From the IMG/VR virus record IMGVR_UViG_3300037558_003017, positions 1-34,650 of that record: 34,650 nt of DNA; one strand, 5' to 3'. Positions 20,452 to 30,741 of the stretch are shown here, piece by piece. Origin of the DNA: a virus. A program made the translations under genes and the position numbers. The notes under the pieces were generated by a model. The model made no database searches and had not been told where the DNA came from. It saw only the letters and a program-made list of their open reading frames with translations. Every line of letters starts with the position of its first letter. The stretch's first letter is position 1.

Positions 20452-20900
20452 AGCTTCTTACCGCCGGACGCTGCCAGGCGCGGAGGCGCGGCGGTCGGGA
20501 AACGGCTGGCCACTTTCTTGGCTTCCTCGTCCCGAGCATCCTTCTTGCCGCCCTCGCCCAGCTTTTTGTGCATGAACGGCAGCAGCGCCTTGGCTGCATC
20601 GACCCGCAGCTTGTCCTCAGTCAGCGGGTCATTCATTGTTGCCAACAAGAACGAACGAGGATCGCTGTATTGTAATGCGCGGCTAATATCGAAGGGGTTG
20701 CTCGCGACCTCCCCGCCCGGCGCTTTGGTTGCCTCGCGGCACTTTTTCAGATATTCAGCGACCGCAGGGTCTTTAACAAGTCGCGAGCCTGCTGCCGAGG
20801 CAGTCGCGGCACTGTAACCGGCCTCGATAGCCGCGTCCCTGTTGGACTTCCCGCGCATCACCGCATCGGCAAACAGCTTCTTTTTAGCTGTTAATGCCAT
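20448..20900 (-). CDS. terS: Terminase small subunit (Terminase_2 type)
   Basis: 150 aa from the ATG at 20900, which has AGGAG 8 nt upstream; a TTG at 20906 is less likely. LTAKKKLFADAVMRGKSNRDAAIEAGYS at the N-terminus is the DNA-binding helix-turn-helix of the family, split over residues about 3-30, followed by the oligomerisation helices. It recognises the packaging site for TerL. The Lys-rich C-terminus (DARDEEAKKVASRF) is typical. Confidence 0.93.
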   Translation of the reverse strand: MALTAKKKLFADAVMRGKSNRDAAIEAGYSAATASAAGSRLVKDPAVAEYLKKCREATKAPGGEVASNPFDISRALQYSDPRSFLLATMNDPLTEDKLRVDAAKALLPFMHKKLGEGGKKDARDEEAKKVASRFPTAAPPRLAASGGKKL

Positions 20901-21006
20901 TAACAAAACTCCTAAAAGGGGATTTTTTCTGCGCGTGGGAAGGCAAGCGGTTTCCGAGGTTTTACCTCATCAACTTTCGATACCCCCGGCAGGCTTCGCC
21001 GCCGGA

Positions 21007-21327
21007 TCAACCTCCCCTGGCCCGTTCCGCAGCCTCACGCGCCGTCTTCTCGTCATGGTGATCCTTGCAAAGCCCTTGCAAGTTGTCCTGATCGTTGGAG
21101 CCGCCACGCCACAATGGCGTCTTGTGATCGACCTCTACTGCTATGGTCTGTCTGCCTTCTGCTAGGCATGCCACACACCAATGGTCCGATGCGACCAAAG
21201 CATCGGTCTTCATCTTCATCCACTGACGCCCTCGGATGCGCAGCGTCGTGCTAGCCGTAGGCTTATGCATCTGGACGCGGCTAGTCTGGGCTTCATGCAA
21301 GCGCGGTTTCAGGGTTCTCAAACGCAT
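21007..21327 (-). CDS. HNH endonuclease (terminase-associated)
   Basis: 106 aa from the ATG at 21327; a GTG at 21336 is possible. The zinc-binding HNH core is complete: CVACLAEG, then VEVDHKTPLWRGGS with the paired catalytic Asp-His, NLQGLCKDHHDEKT. A short HNH gene next to terS is usual in HK97-like phages, where it is needed with terminase for cos cleavage. That makes a cos site close to this gene likely, though none is identified by eye. GGGAGG precedes the start. Confidence 0.92.
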   Translation of the reverse strand: MRLRTLKPRLHEAQTSRVQMHKPTASTTLRIRGRQWMKMKTDALVASDHWCVACLAEGRQTIAVEVDHKTPLWRGGSNDQDNLQGLCKDHHDEKTAREAAERARGG

Positions 21328-21347
21328 GATAGCCACGCCTCCCTATA

Positions 21348-23288
21348 TCAAAAACCCAACAAAGTCGGAAGTTTGCTAGCAAGATCGGCGGCGACGTATG
21401 TGTGGATTGCTGCCTGCGGATGAGTCGAGTCGAAATAGCCTGCCTGAGCAGTACCATTACAAGGGATCTTCCCGTCTATCACATCGGTAAAGCCAGCTGC
21501 GCCGGCACCCGCGTAGATCGCGTTGTACATATCGTATGCAGCCGTCGGGTCGGCCGCAGTGAACACACCGGCACGCAGATACGGATTGTACGAATCGTAG
21601 CCCGGCGTACCTGGACCCATGAGCGATGTCTGATTTGCCGTTGTCTCCCATGAGTCAGTTGAGCTCGCCTGTGGCGCGAACGTCACTGCGATCAGCGGTA
21701 GTGAGCTAGAGCGGGCCGCGGCACGGATTTTCGCCCAATGATCACGCTGTGTCGCAAGCAAACCTGTCCCGACGGGGCCTGACCATGGGAGGCTACGGTT
21801 GTTGTTGCCCATATTCGTGATCGCAGCATCAGCAAATTGACCTTGCAGAAGACGCTGCGAAAAACCACCATAGAGAGCCGGCACTGTGGCGTTCGTACCG
21901 CTGACTGCTGCCCGCGTCCAGCTATATTTCCCAGTGTTCAGTGCACGATTTACAAAGGCTGTGCAGCCATCTGCATCACCGTACAGCGCGCCGTTCGGCG
22001 TTATGCGGTCTGAATTTTCACGGCCGATGCTGTCGCCGTGATTGATCAGGGACTTCTCGCCGTATGCACCACTTCCATAAACGTTACACGGGCCGCACAC
22101 AACCTGGCCGGCTGTCACACCGCTCAACGTTGTCCAGTCTTTCAGGAAGACTGCAGTACCAGCCCCCGCTTGATCCTTCATCATATCGCCCAGGTCAGTA
22201 CGACCGGATGATACTGGCTGGCTCGGATATTTCGCACCAACAGCCGGCGCGATTTCCCAGCTGACCATGTACCAGGCATCTTTGAGGATGGTGAAGCCAT
22301 AGGCGCGATCTGAGCGAACACGCCAGCCATCCGGAACTGTCAGCGTGTAACCGTCACCAGAAATCGCGCCGCCAGCTGCAGAAAATTCCGCTGTCGTCGG
22401 CTGAGTACCATCCAACTTGAAAATATAGCCCGCCTGGCATGCGGCGGCTCTTGTCCACTTGAGCTGCACCAGAACTGCCGACGATTGATTCTGCCCGGAA
22501 CCCGAAGTATTCAAGAGCAGCGCGGCGCGGATTGGGACAACGTTACCAACACCCTTCTCTTGGGGAGCATTGCTTGTGGCAGCGTCCACATAACCGTTCC
22601 ACCACTCCACCCACGGATCAGTGACGGTCTTGTTTGATCGATCCGCCAGGCGCGAACTCCGGACATTGTTTGCTCCTGCGGTAAGAGCCATGTAAGGCAA
22701 AACCGTCCGCTTCGATGCCGACAAGACCGGCAAGCAGTTCGTACTGCTACCTGTGAGACTGTGCGTGGAACCGCTGGCATTGGTGCCAACCGAATCCAGC
22801 GTTAACGACTTGTTCAGGTCGGAGGGCATCACAACATACGGCAGCGTACCCACCAGCACGCCATTCGCATAGACGTTCGTCGTCACCGACGAGGCGCCGC
22901 TAAAGCTGCCGGCAGTAGCATCCAAGACCTCGAATACCTTCGGCGCTGAGTTGATGGTGGGGGACGCAACAACTGTGGGTGCACCAGAAGGAACGGGCAC
23001 GCTAACGCCATACGGAAGACGAAATACCAGGCCAGTAACGCGGGGAGTGACTGTATAGCCAATATCCGCGCTAGTCAGGGCATAGGATGCTCCTGTAGCA
23101 CCAGCAATATCAGTCGTAGCACCACCAGCAGTCGGGGTACGAGTCCACTGAATAGCAGAATAGTCCCAACCAAAACTCTTGGTCACTGTAACTACGCTTC
23201 CGACCGTATTTCCACTAGAAGTAAAGCCGATGGGGCCACGTCCAAGTCCGAGAATTCCGGCTTCAATCATCGCAGAAGTAACGCTCAT
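21348..23288 (-). CDS. SGNH/GDSL-type hydrolase with N-terminal Ig-like region
   Basis: 646 aa from the ATG at 23288, which overlaps the preceding stop as ATGA. Residues about 30-115 look like one or more Ig-like beta domains (YSAIQWTRTP, then SYALTSADIGYTVTPRV). The C-terminal half carries SGNH blocks: NHGDS with Ser420, MGNNN with Asn496 in the GxND position, and DSTHPQ with Asp620 and His623, giving a complete Ser-His-Asp set. No signal peptide is seen. SGNH enzymes remove acyl or acetyl groups; a virion-borne capsule or O-antigen deacetylase is the best guess. Its place before HNH/terS, away from the tail genes, is unusual. Confidence 0.75.
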   Translation of the reverse strand: MSVTSAMIEAGILGLGRGPIGFTSSGNTVGSVVTVTKSFGWDYSAIQWTRTPTAGGATTDIAGATGASYALTSADIGYTVTPRVTGLVFRLPYGVSVPVPSGAPTVVASPTINSAPKVFEVLDATAGSFSGASSVTTNVYANGVLVGTLPYVVMPSDLNKSLTLDSVGTNASGSTHSLTGSSTNCLPVLSASKRTVLPYMALTAGANNVRSSRLADRSNKTVTDPWVEWWNGYVDAATSNAPQEKGVGNVVPIRAALLLNTSGSGQNQSSAVLVQLKWTRAAACQAGYIFKLDGTQPTTAEFSAAGGAISGDGYTLTVPDGWRVRSDRAYGFTILKDAWYMVSWEIAPAVGAKYPSQPVSSGRTDLGDMMKDQAGAGTAVFLKDWTTLSGVTAGQVVCGPCNVYGSGAYGEKSLINHGDSIGRENSDRITPNGALYGDADGCTAFVNRALNTGKYSWTRAAVSGTNATVPALYGGFSQRLLQGQFADAAITNMGNNNRSLPWSGPVGTGLLATQRDHWAKIRAAARSSSLPLIAVTFAPQASSTDSWETTANQTSLMGPGTPGYDSYNPYLRAGVFTAADPTAAYDMYNAIYAGAGAAGFTDVIDGKIPCNGTAQAGYFDSTHPQAAIHTYVAADLASKLPTLLGF

Positions 23289-23485
23289 GCTGTCCTCGTC
23301 CACTTCGAGATGTTGGTCTTGCTTCCGTTGTAGGCGATGGTCTTGGTGAACACCGCGCCATCGGGACGAGACGCAATGATGCTCACCACTCGATCACTGC
23401 TGTCTTTGGTGATCTCGACATCGCACCACTCCGTCCAGGTATCCGACAAACCCAGCGGGCTATTCAAACCGACATCAGCGAGCAT
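23285..23485 (-). CDS. Hypothetical 66-aa protein coupled to the SGNH hydrolase
   Basis: 66 aa, no family recognised. It is rich in beta-type residues, with WTEWCDVEI and DRVVSIIASRPDG, and looks like a small soluble domain. It overlaps the hydrolase gene by 4 bp and is the first gene after an intrinsic terminator, so it is the first gene of the late block as seen here. The ribosome site is weak (CCGGTG region). It could be a chaperone or attachment partner of the hydrolase. Confidence 0.6.
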   Translation of the reverse strand: MLADVGLNSPLGLSDTWTEWCDVEITKDSSDRVVSIIASRPDGAVFTKTIAYNGSKTNISKWTRTA

Positions 23486-23496
23486 ATGAGCACCGG

Positions 23497-23523
23497 AAAT
23501 AAAAAAGCCCGCACATGGCGGGC
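23497..23523 (-). terminator. Intrinsic terminator in front of the late operon
   Basis: On the - strand GCCCGC-CATGT-GCGGGC is followed by TTTTTTATTT. It ends 11 bp before the 66-aa gene. In lambda a terminator downstream of the late promoter is overcome by Q; this could be its counterpart. The 200 bp to the right (23524-23724) contain short GAGG/CCTC inverted repeats and an AT-rich part near 23590-23615, but no convincing leftward promoter. Confidence 0.8.
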
Positions 23524-23724
23524 AAACCCTCGAGAGAGGCGGGAGGACCTAAAAACCTCGGCGCGCATACACACGCCAATTTCCACAAGACAAGAAAATT
23601 AATAAAAATTTATTAGCTCTTGACTAACTCACTTCTGTGTACAAATCTGTTTGCGCAGTGCGTCAAAAAAGGGGTTTTGAGCAGCTTCTACCAACGAATA
23701 AAACTAGAATTGAAAGGGGTAAAG

Positions 23725-24363
23725 ATGTTACTGAAAAACAAGGTATCCAAGTTCCTTCGCGCTACACTTTTTACCGGAGCGGTTGCATTGTCAGCTCCAT
23801 CGTATGCCGGTCCAGTTTTAGTTTGGGCCACTCAACTTGACTCTGATAACCTTGTTCTCTATGAGTCAGGTCTTTATGGCCCTACCTATGGATCAGTGGT
23901 GCAACACTTTAATTGGCAACAGCAGCAAGATCAGACAACGGTTTTCTCAGCACTCGCAACGGTAAATAGCTTCGCCCTAAGGTGGCTGCCAGACAAACCT
24001 TCCTCCAGCAGCTTAGTGGTAAAGCTCTATCATGCAGACTTACCAACTCTTCCTGACCTTTCCAACCCGATTCGGATTTTGACTTTCAATGACCCAATAC
24101 CTAGCTACAGCTCGCCATATACGACGATAAACTTGTCATCAGGAATCAACGCAATCTCTTTTAGCCTCACCAACCCTGACCCATCCAAGTCCTACAGTTT
24201 CGGGTTCACGCTTGGACTCTCAGAGTTCAACCCAACGTCTGCGGTCCCTGAAGCACCTGCATCAGCAATGTTTCTGGGAGGACTCGGTCTGGTAGGAGTG
24301 GCCGCCTGGCGTCGTAAGCGATTTGCAACGCCAGAAGCTTCCTCGCGACAGGCCTTTGCGTAA
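23725..24363 (+). CDS. PEP-CTERM sorting-domain protein (moron)
   Basis: 212 aa from the ATG at 23725, which follows AAAGGGG and gives a clean signal peptide (1-28, cleavage after SYA). The C-terminus has VPE at 174-176, a hydrophobic segment (about 179-194, SAMFLGGLGLVGVAAW) and RRKR at 196-199: the PEP-CTERM tripartite signal recognised by exosortase in exopolysaccharide-making Gram-negatives. The motif reads VPEAPAS rather than the usual VPEPAS, and 13 residues follow the basic cluster. The middle is not recognised. It is on the strand opposite to the phage genes and visibly more AT-rich, with TTGACT at 23620 as a possible -35. A lysogenic-conversion cargo gene is the best reading. Confidence 0.82.
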   Translation: MLLKNKVSKFLRATLFTGAVALSAPSYAGPVLVWATQLDSDNLVLYESGLYGPTYGSVVQHFNWQQQQDQTTVFSALATVNSFALRWLPDKPSSSSLVVKLYHADLPTLPDLSNPIRILTFNDPIPSYSSPYTTINLSSGINAISFSLTNPDPSKSYSFGFTLGLSEFNPTSAVPEAPASAMFLGGLGLVGVAAWRRKRFATPEASSRQAFA

Positions 24364-24376
24364 AAACATGAAGAAT

Positions 24377-24402
24377 GCCCGCATGCTCTTGTAGCTGCGG
24401 GC
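24377..24402. terminator. Hairpin after the PEP-CTERM gene
   Basis: GCCCGCA/TGCGGGC arms (7 bp) enclose a further GCT/AGC pairing. It is 14 bp beyond the + strand stop codon. Neither side has a strong U-tract (the - side has ATTCTTCATGTTTTT), so it is a plausible but weak bidirectional terminator. Confidence 0.45.
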
Positions 24403-24435
24403 AACATCTAGCACCCCGAAAAAGATTTGAAGCCT

Positions 24436-24510
24436 GGAGCGTCAGGGGAGAATCGAACTCCTCTTCATCTGTTTGGAAGGCAGCGGCTCTGCCATTGAGC
24501 TACAGACGCG
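24436..24510 (-). tRNA. tRNA-Gly(TCC), degenerate
   Basis: 75 nt including an encoded CCA. The order is acceptor GCGTCTG, D arm GCTC/GAGC, anticodon loop CTTCCAA (anticodon TCC), T loop TTCGATT and discriminator T as expected for glycine. Mismatches are visible at 6-67 (T-T), 27-43 (G-A), 31-39 (C-A) and 49-65 (A-C). The anticodon stem keeps only three central pairs. It may be a phage tRNA tolerating mismatches or one decaying. It lies after a strong terminator, so it needs read-through or its own promoter. Confidence 0.75.
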
Positions 24511-24518
24511 CAAAAAGA

Positions 24519-24550
24519 AAAAGCCTCGTTCGGATGATCGAGGCTTTTTG
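24519..24550. terminator. Strong bidirectional terminator
   Basis: An 11-bp perfect inverted repeat (AAAAAGCCTCG/CGAGGCTTTTT) has a 10-nt loop. On the - strand it runs into T5-C-T5. It lies 17 bp after the stop of the 144-aa leftward gene and just upstream of the tRNA. Confidence 0.88.
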
Positions 24551-24567
24551 AAGTGTCTTATCGGGCT

Positions 24568-25002
24568 TCACACCAGCAGCTGCGTGAAGTGCTCCACCTG
24601 GTGCGCGGGCACAACGAAAGGAACGAATTCTGCACCGTTCGTTGCCAGCCAATAGGAACGATGACGACCATTCATAAATTCGTACAAGCCTGGCACCTTT
24701 TCATACACCACACCCATGTCTAGCGCTCTTCCTTGGCCTTCCCTGAGCGAATCCAAACGCGCCAACTTGTCGGGGTACGGATTAAATCCGCGTGGGGGAT
24801 CGCCGTAGCTGCCGTTTGCGAACTCCGCGTCTTTGAGCCAAGCCAAAACCTTCTCAGGCGTCGCCTTGAGAATTGCCCAACCTTTGCCGGACTCAGCTTG
24901 GCCGTTATAAGTCCTGACGTTATGTAATGCATCTTCATACATCACGACCTTGCCGCCAGCAGCCCCAGTAGCGAACACTTCCATTTTATCGCCATATGCC
25001 AT
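24568..25002 (-). CDS. Hypothetical protein with GRHR motif, self-contained cassette
   Basis: 144 aa from the ATG at 25002, with GAGGAG 7 nt upstream. No family is recognised with confidence. The C-terminal NGRHRSYWLATNGAEFVPFV resembles the GxxR-type motif of ParB/sulfiredoxin-like domains and of plasmid fertility-inhibition-type proteins, but this is only a hint. The gene has its own likely promoter (25028-25036), a terminator upstream (25066-25092) and a strong terminator downstream (24519-24550). This is the classic insulated arrangement of a moron, although it reads in the lytic direction. Confidence 0.65.
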   Translation of the reverse strand: MAYGDKMEVFATGAAGGKVVMYEDALHNVRTYNGQAESGKGWAILKATPEKVLAWLKDAEFANGSYGDPPRGFNPYPDKLARLDSLREGQGRALDMGVVYEKVPGLYEFMNGRHRSYWLATNGAEFVPFVVPAHQVEHFTQLLV

Positions 25003-25027
25003 GGATATTCTCCTCAGTTGAGAATAA

Positions 25028-25329: not shown

Positions 25330-26592
25330 ATGCCCGCACCTACCTTTTTCCTTTCTTCGACCATATACGATTTCCATGATCTTCGCAGCGCTATTAAATT
25401 CTACTTGGAGCAGCAAGGTTGCTTAGTTCTTGCCTCAGAATACAGCGATTTTGCGCCATCCTTGGCAGAGCACTCCTACGATGCATGTCTGGAAGCAATT
25501 GGCAGGGCTGACTACTATGTTCTCCTGATCGGCACCAGGGTTGGCGGCCTGGTCAATAAAGATCAGAAAGTTAGCATCACTCGGCAAGAATACCGCGCGG
25601 CGTATGAACTCCATAAACGAGGTAAATTGAAGCTACTCAACTTCGTCAGGCGTCAAGTCTGGGACTACCGTGAAACGCGAAATGAACTCATCAGCTATTT
25701 GAAGCAGGTCGCAATTGCTGAGACGGAACGAGAAGCCGTCGGGAATCATCCAACGAAGTTTGCTAACGATGCTGAGTTCATCTCTGGATTCATTAACGAG
25801 GTCGCTCGAAATCAGGAAACAAAAGAAGCACTTGCTTGCGCGGGTGACATGCCCACTAACAACTGGATATATCAATTCGATACATTTAGAGACGTAATTG
25901 ATGCACTGCGAAGCCAAGTATTCAAAGGAAGTCCCCTTGAACATGCCGTTCTGAGGAAACATCTCCAAAGTGAACTGAAGGAGATCGCCAAACTTTGTCT
26001 AATTAAGAGTAGAGGCATGCTATTCCCGCCTACGATGTTGATTAACGGCTTCAGGGACAATTACCCTCTCAATTGGCCCACAGAACCTGATGAAGTCAAA
26101 GTTATTGTCGGAGAAGATTGGAAATATATTCGCCTCTGCGCGGCACACCTCCCAGCTATGAGTTTTGGGAATATTCCTATCTTGCGAAAAGTACTTGAAT
26201 CAGATCTCATGCTGGAGTTTTCCCCGGCTAACTCTGACTTCATAGAAAGCGCCCCCTATAAACTTCTGTACCAACTTGTGCGTACCATTGACATCTTCAA
26301 ATTGGAAGATCGCCAAGAGTTACTTAGAATTATCCTGCCCCGTCAGGGCAACGACGACGAACTGATAAACGTTAAAACGGAGGATCTGATTCGGATTGCC
26401 CATCTATTTGACAGATGGGATGACATTTTTGCGCTCTCGACTGCTTTGCTCATTTACTTAAAAACAGGGGAAAACAAGTCGCCCAATCTCCGGCCGAAAT
26501 CCCCGATTCAAGCCGACAATGAGGAATTCGAGCGGGAGACGATCAGTGATGCAGAGCTTTATCAGCTTTTAGATGAGATCAATTCACAATGA
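25330..26592 (+). CDS. DUF4062-domain protein, candidate anti-phage defence moron
   Basis: 420 aa. Start ATG 25330 has GAGG 5 nt upstream. Residues 6-19 (FFLSSTIYDFHDLR) match the FVSSTxxDxxxER start of DUF4062; CLEAIGRADYYVLLIGTRVG (53-72) and SITRQEYRAA (82-91) complete the domain, a Rossmann-like, TIR-related N-terminal module often fused to NTPase or repeat domains in defence proteins. Residues 170-420 are not recognised and show no Walker motif. It stands alone, opposite to the lytic genes and convergent with the Q-position gene, and is more AT-rich than its neighbours. Prophages often carry defence genes here. Function is inference. Confidence 0.8.
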   Translation: MPAPTFFLSSTIYDFHDLRSAIKFYLEQQGCLVLASEYSDFAPSLAEHSYDACLEAIGRADYYVLLIGTRVGGLVNKDQKVSITRQEYRAAYELHKRGKLKLLNFVRRQVWDYRETRNELISYLKQVAIAETEREAVGNHPTKFANDAEFISGFINEVARNQETKEALACAGDMPTNNWIYQFDTFRDVIDALRSQVFKGSPLEHAVLRKHLQSELKEIAKLCLIKSRGMLFPPTMLINGFRDNYPLNWPTEPDEVKVIVGEDWKYIRLCAAHLPAMSFGNIPILRKVLESDLMLEFSPANSDFIESAPYKLLYQLVRTIDIFKLEDRQELLRIILPRQGNDDELINVKTEDLIRIAHLFDRWDDIFALSTALLIYLKTGENKSPNLRPKSPIQADNEEFERETISDAELYQLLDEINSQ

Positions 26593-30534: not shown

Positions 30535-30741
30535 ATGAACATGCAACCAGTCAGGTCCAGTGCTATCGCCGCAGTTGGTTACGATCCATCTAAGCGCGAA
30601 CTCTTTATTCAATTCACCAGCCACCCCAAGATCTACACGTTTGTAGGTGTTCCCATTACCGTCTATACGGACTTCATGAATTCCACTAGCAAGGGCCGGT
30701 ATTACGATCTCTTCATCAAGGACCGCTATTCGATTCGATGA
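30535..30741 (+). CDS. KTSC-domain protein
   Basis: 68 aa. AAGGGGGGG precedes the ATG at 30535. The sequence has SSAIAAVGYDPSKRELFIQF, YTFVGVPITVYTDFMNSTSKGRYYDLFIKDRY; the S-S-x-I-x-x-V-x-Y-D start and SKGRYYDxxIK end are the signature of the KTSC domain (residues about 8-64). KTSC proteins are small, found in many prophages and fused to RNA-related enzymes such as lysyl-tRNA synthetase; the function is unknown. It is oriented against the lytic genes and is followed by another + gene. Confidence 0.85.
   Translation: MNMQPVRSSAIAAVGYDPSKRELFIQFTSHPKIYTFVGVPITVYTDFMNSTSKGRYYDLFIKDRYSIR

Follow-up and report, generated by a model that had tools for sequence, protein, structure and literature searches.

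The gene at 23725-24363, which encodes a PEP-CTERM protein, is probably a moron (a lysogenic-conversion gene) located in the tRNA-Gly/late-operon interval of a temperate phage of Herbaspirillum, a bacterium of soil and water, and its product would be sorted into the exopolysaccharide layer by the exosortase of the host. The window, i.e. the whole stretch of DNA analysed, is an IMG/VR record of 34.65 kb that comes with no host genome, and comprises a late operon running from lysis to terminase (minus strand), a cargo region, replication genes (a DnaB-type helicase and an initiator), and repressor-side genes. The phage is Stanholtvirus-like (phiE125/Bcep176-type): the nearest cultured relative, Burkholderia phage Bcep176 (Stanholtvirus), exhibits 69.5% DNA identity in the packaging/head module and has the gene order HNH-terS-terL-portal in common with the window, but its equivalent interval, unlike that of the window, lacks an annotated PEP-CTERM gene.

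Table 1. Features of the PEP-CTERM gene, its insert and the exchanged cassette (positions in the window)
Feature	Position	Strand	Remarks
PEP-CTERM gene	23725..24363	+	212 aa, monocistronic; identical protein in H. aquaticum IEH 4430
Signal peptide, residues 1-28	23725..23808	+	cut expected after SYA; by inspection and hydropathy
Ectodomain, about 145 aa	23809..24243	+	without convincing relative in searches
Exosortase sorting tag VPEAPASAMFLGGLGLVGVAAWRRKR	24244..24321	+	PF07589, residues 173-198, 22.0 bits
13-residue tail FATPEASSRQAFA after basic cluster	24322..24360	+	host proteins with similar tails
Moron insert	23537..24434		inner edge at 23537-23550; missing from three close relatives
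Noncoding leader, 239 nt	23486..23724	+	upstream of PEP-CTERM gene
G+C-rich hairpin GCCCGCA-12 nt-TGCGGGC	24377..24402	+	after stop, no U run; by inspection
tRNA-Gly (TCC)	24435..24509	-	conserved landmark of cargo interval in related phages
Intrinsic terminator, head of late operon	23507..23523	-	in relatives within about 30 nt after tRNA
HNH-SGNH-PEP-tRNA cassette	20767..24657		one SNP in 3,891 bp relative to H. aquaticum prophage

The open reading frame starts with an ATG at 23725, directly preceded by an AAGGGG-type ribosome site, and stops at 24361-24363. By inspection, the Sec-type leader of the protein reads MLLKNKVSKFLRATLFTGAVALSAPSYA, with G as the first residue after the cut. No convincing relatives of the ectodomain were found in INPHARED phages, in plasmids, or in 392 family, 399 order and 369 class genomes; the matches recorded outside H. 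aquaticum were all weak, and those inspected were partial and without a PEP-CTERM end. Judged by its sequence, the ectodomain is consequently what is new about the phage protein. A single-sequence AlphaFold2 model returned a pLDDT of 33 and was discarded.

Ownership of the gene was addressed with 40 relatives of the window phage gathered through the small terminase. In three close relatives (L032, L034 and L037), the 3' end of tRNA-Gly(TCC) is followed by about 14 nt and then by the conserved late-operon leader and terminator, and the same empty site is present in G007, a complete genome containing the L037 prophage. The window has about 890 bp between tRNA-Gly and the late leader, with the PEP-CTERM gene as the sole gene, placed on the plus strand between the late operon and tRNA-Gly, both on the minus strand, as the first-pass annotation had described. 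Because tRNA-Gly joins the late leader directly in the three close relatives, the insert is a clean one and the gene is part of the phage; to be inserted among phage genes and absent from close relatives is also one of the marks of a moron.

A protein 100% identical to that of the window is encoded in NZ_NJGV01000040 (L003), a prophage of Herbaspirillum aquaticum IEH 4430. Throughout the HNH-SGNH-PEP-tRNA cassette, the sole SNP between the two is located at 23904 and leaves the PEP-CTERM protein unchanged, whereas the 2.0 kb to the left of the cassette contains 121 differences (about 6% divergence) and to the right divergence sets in shortly beyond the boundary; the cassette was therefore recently exchanged as a block. 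The earlier claim that the gene is carried by a prophage thus gains support both from the clean empty site in relatives and from movement within a recently exchanged phage cassette. Relative to the window, large deletions affect the lysis, tail and head genes of the H. aquaticum prophage but leave the cassette intact: four internal deletions, with overlaps of 2-5 nt at the joins, have removed most of its head and tail genes.

The immediate surroundings of the PEP-CTERM gene suggest a link with the cell surface. Its neighbour at 21348-23303 (-), at the head of the late operon beside HNH, encodes an SGNH/lysophospholipase L1-like esterase (phrog_8480) that may act on surface sugars; it had no match in INPHARED. 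The slot that it occupies varies among relatives, where fn3-like and deacetylase-like genes are found, that of L032 giving a sub-threshold polysaccharide-deacetylase match. Other genes recorded in the window include a DUF4062 gene in the same cargo region (25330-26592, +; 55.9 bits; G+C 46%), which had no match in PADLOC and is absent from the H. aquaticum prophage contig; a gene at 24568-25005 (-) with a sub-threshold match to the plasmid fertility inhibition factor PFIN (24.7 against 27 bits), found elsewhere in IMG/VR in the H. aquaticum prophage only; and a small KTSC-domain gene at 30535-30738 (+, 70 bits).

The pathway proposed takes as its template the Haft model of PEP-CTERM/exosortase sorting (PMC1569441). 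The lysogen would express the gene from its own promoter, Sec would export the product, and the C-terminal helix would anchor it in the inner membrane, whereupon a host exosortase of the XrtB type would cut at the VPEA motif and the ectodomain would pass outside to join the exopolysaccharide layer, where it might alter aggregation, EPS retention or receptor access. On this scheme, the phage would supply the substrate and the host the sorting enzyme, and the outer coat of the lysogen could be altered by a phage protein. For another PEP-CTERM protein, PepA, overexpression restored flocs and moved EPS from the soluble to the bound form (PMC9850573). The window gene resembles the established EpsH substrates (PMC1569441) in its signal peptide and C-terminal motif-helix-basic tag, as a single-gene unit with more than 200 nt of noncoding DNA upstream, and in the presence of an exosortase in the H. 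aquaticum genome; it differs from them in being phage-encoded, in having PEA as its motif, and in the lack of a sigma-54/PEP-CTERM box upstream. A scan for that box upstream of the phage gene performed no better than on shuffled sequences, and the host PEP-CTERM genes were likewise without a clear box. No sigma-70 or sigma-54 consensus promoter was found on the plus strand of the leader, a result that counts against the proposed reading. As an extra, self-contained prophage gene aimed at the cell surface, it is comparable to the P22 gtrABC and TP-J34 ltp morons, from which it would differ in that its product is placed by a host exosortase.

The sorted protein might instead serve superinfection exclusion, coating or masking the receptor of the window phage and its relatives with any change in EPS as a side effect. 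There is a precedent in the surface lipoprotein Ltp of Streptococcus thermophilus phages, which excludes superinfection (PMC3952083), and the gene does adjoin the variable esterase gene within the exchanged cassette. The protein has, however, no homology to known exclusion proteins, and its sole match in a defence library, to the PADLOC model DruL4 (a Druantia protein of unknown function), was weak at 20.6 bits and was treated as chance. Exclusion as the principal function is considered unlikely.

Base composition sets the insert apart from the phage genes, the G+C content of the ORF being 49.5% and that of the insert 47.3%, compared with 57.4% for the window, which bears out the earlier description of the gene as more AT-rich. 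The longest ATG-initiated ORF in the insert extends to 212 codons, whereas in 1000 shuffles it reached 173 at most and averaged 66. A single insert of foreign composition, not found in close relatives, would also be expected if a host or foreign surface gene had been acquired by illegitimate recombination with no benefit to either phage or host. It is doubtful that the gene is such a neutral passenger: it has remained intact in two prophages, one of which has undergone large deletions elsewhere, and unrelated PEP-CTERM genes recur in other phages.

The signal peptide, VPE motif, membrane segment and RRKR noted in the first-pass annotation are all present, and the protein ends in VPEAPASAMFLGGLGLVGVAAWRRKR followed by FATPEASSRQAFA, that is, a VPEA motif, a helix and RRKR, then 13 residues. 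With the Pfam PEP-CTERM model PF07589, the protein scored 22.0 bits, above the gathering threshold of 20.7. In NCBIfam, the best match lay in the tag portion of the FxDxF PEP-CTERM family (NF038126; 33.5 bits, 4e-8); the family's full-length cut-off is 50 bits, so that the phage protein falls below it and matches in the tag region alone. The phage protein is thus like the FxDxF family of Herbaspirillum in its tag and C-terminal tail, while its ectodomain lies outside that family. The generic NCBI model TIGR02595 did not list the phage protein at E values up to 1, which counts against the reading proposed here; nor, at E values up to 0.001, did it list an accepted FxDxF protein of G007.

It is quite improbable that the product is a plain membrane-anchored exported protein with a C-terminus that merely resembles a PEP-CTERM tag and is no exosortase substrate. 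The A at the third position of the motif and the missing TIGR02595 listing would fit such a protein; against it, PF07589 is exceeded, and accepted host FxDxF PEP-CTERM members share the VPEA motif, among them the G007 gene with a full-length score of 113 bits. The chromosomal FxDxF proteins of Herbaspirillum end in VPEASTTAMMLGGLGLVGFAAYRRRR plus 13-17 aa, and the phage tag is identical at 16-18 of 26 positions to the host FxDxF-type tags compared and at 14-15 of 26 to the other two H. aquaticum tags. From these alignments, the VPEA motif and the C-terminal tail of the phage protein are ordinary for Herbaspirillum, and the previous view of both as unusual is not sustained.

The host enzyme that exosortase sorting calls for was found in the same genome as the identical gene. 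The H. aquaticum genome has four further PEP-CTERM genes and a single EpsH protein (G001:C25:89039-89812), which the family scan assigned to XrtB (346 bits; cut-off 275); a B-type EpsI half and an EpsG kinase are encoded next to it. The XrtA model (TIGR03109) scored only 121 bits against a cut-off of 208. The expectation of an exosortase of the EpsH/XrtA kind in the host thus held for EpsH and failed as to type. The exosortase of the window phage's own host we infer from that of H. aquaticum. Across Herbaspirillum, an exosortase is present in 19 of 34 genomes; the 16 genomes with a tag match to the phage protein all fall among these 19, and none among the 15 exosortase-negative genomes, so that the tag tracks the exosortase.

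That a chromosomal neighbour was wrongly assigned to the prophage, as might be suspected from G007, where about 4 kb separate the related prophage from a chromosomal PEP-CTERM gene that borders the exosortase locus, is extremely improbable, the window gene being interior, between terminase and replication genes and away from the attachment end, and that chromosomal gene encoding an FxDxF protein with another ectodomain. For the same two reasons, an origin by aberrant excision from the chromosomal gene near the G007 attachment site was rejected. The G007 prophage itself (G007:C1:2279464-2326234; L123-L125) is integrated at tRNA-Pro(GGG) beside the host exosortase exopolysaccharide locus, with about 20 kb between it and the exosortase gene; its integrase-distal end encodes an Acyl_transf_3 protein and a glycosyltransferase.

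A PEP-CTERM gene in a phage had been presented as an exception, a view that the finding of further phage cases does not support. In a relative with 59% identity in the small terminase (L042), the same interval, between the replication side and HNH/terminase, encodes a PEP-CTERM protein unrelated to that of the window. Two IMG/VR scans with narrow PEP-CTERM patterns returned 25 and 77 contigs (union 96), of which the second contributed 71 new ones, 62 of these passing when checked for a helix and a basic end at the C-terminus. Because IMG/VR boundaries can include host genes, the 96 contigs set a ceiling on how many true phage genes these patterns match, and firm cases were taken to be loci whose phage genes were checked by PHROGs. 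All 15 of the proteins tested from the pattern-scan loci, that of L042 included, passed PF07589. Among the firm cases, the PEP-CTERM gene lies between portal and major head protein in L074 and within the head module in L160; in L188 it is flanked by helicase and terminase and, as in the window, runs on the opposite strand; and it adjoins an endolysin gene in L072, L085 and L193.

A wider possibility, put forward tentatively, is that exosortase substrates carried by temperate phages form a class of conversion genes in its own right, so far undescribed and spread across Proteobacteria, the host exosortase decorating the exopolysaccharide layer with the products and thereby excluding competing phages or changing the biofilm of the lysogen. 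No description of phage-encoded exosortase substrates was identified in searches of 5.39 million open papers. To our knowledge, little is understood so far of the roles of PEP-CTERM proteins outside the cell; a substrate carried by a phage amounts to a natural on/off switch for one of them, and lysogens with and without it would provide a clean test. As such genes recur in phage contigs, the idea could be tested in several hosts. If phages gain from these genes, the conflict between phage and host would have the exosortase system as one of its targets, and the reach of lysogenic conversion would extend beyond sugar-modifying enzymes and lipoproteins to the cargo of exosortases.

Among the phage PEP-CTERM proteins, two recurring groups of look-alikes were apparent, one comprising those of L150, L170, L184 and L193, and the other those of L072, L076, L085, L147, L154, L174 and L196. 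In L193, L170, L072 and L085, the gene lies beside an endolysin gene or an endolysin look-alike.
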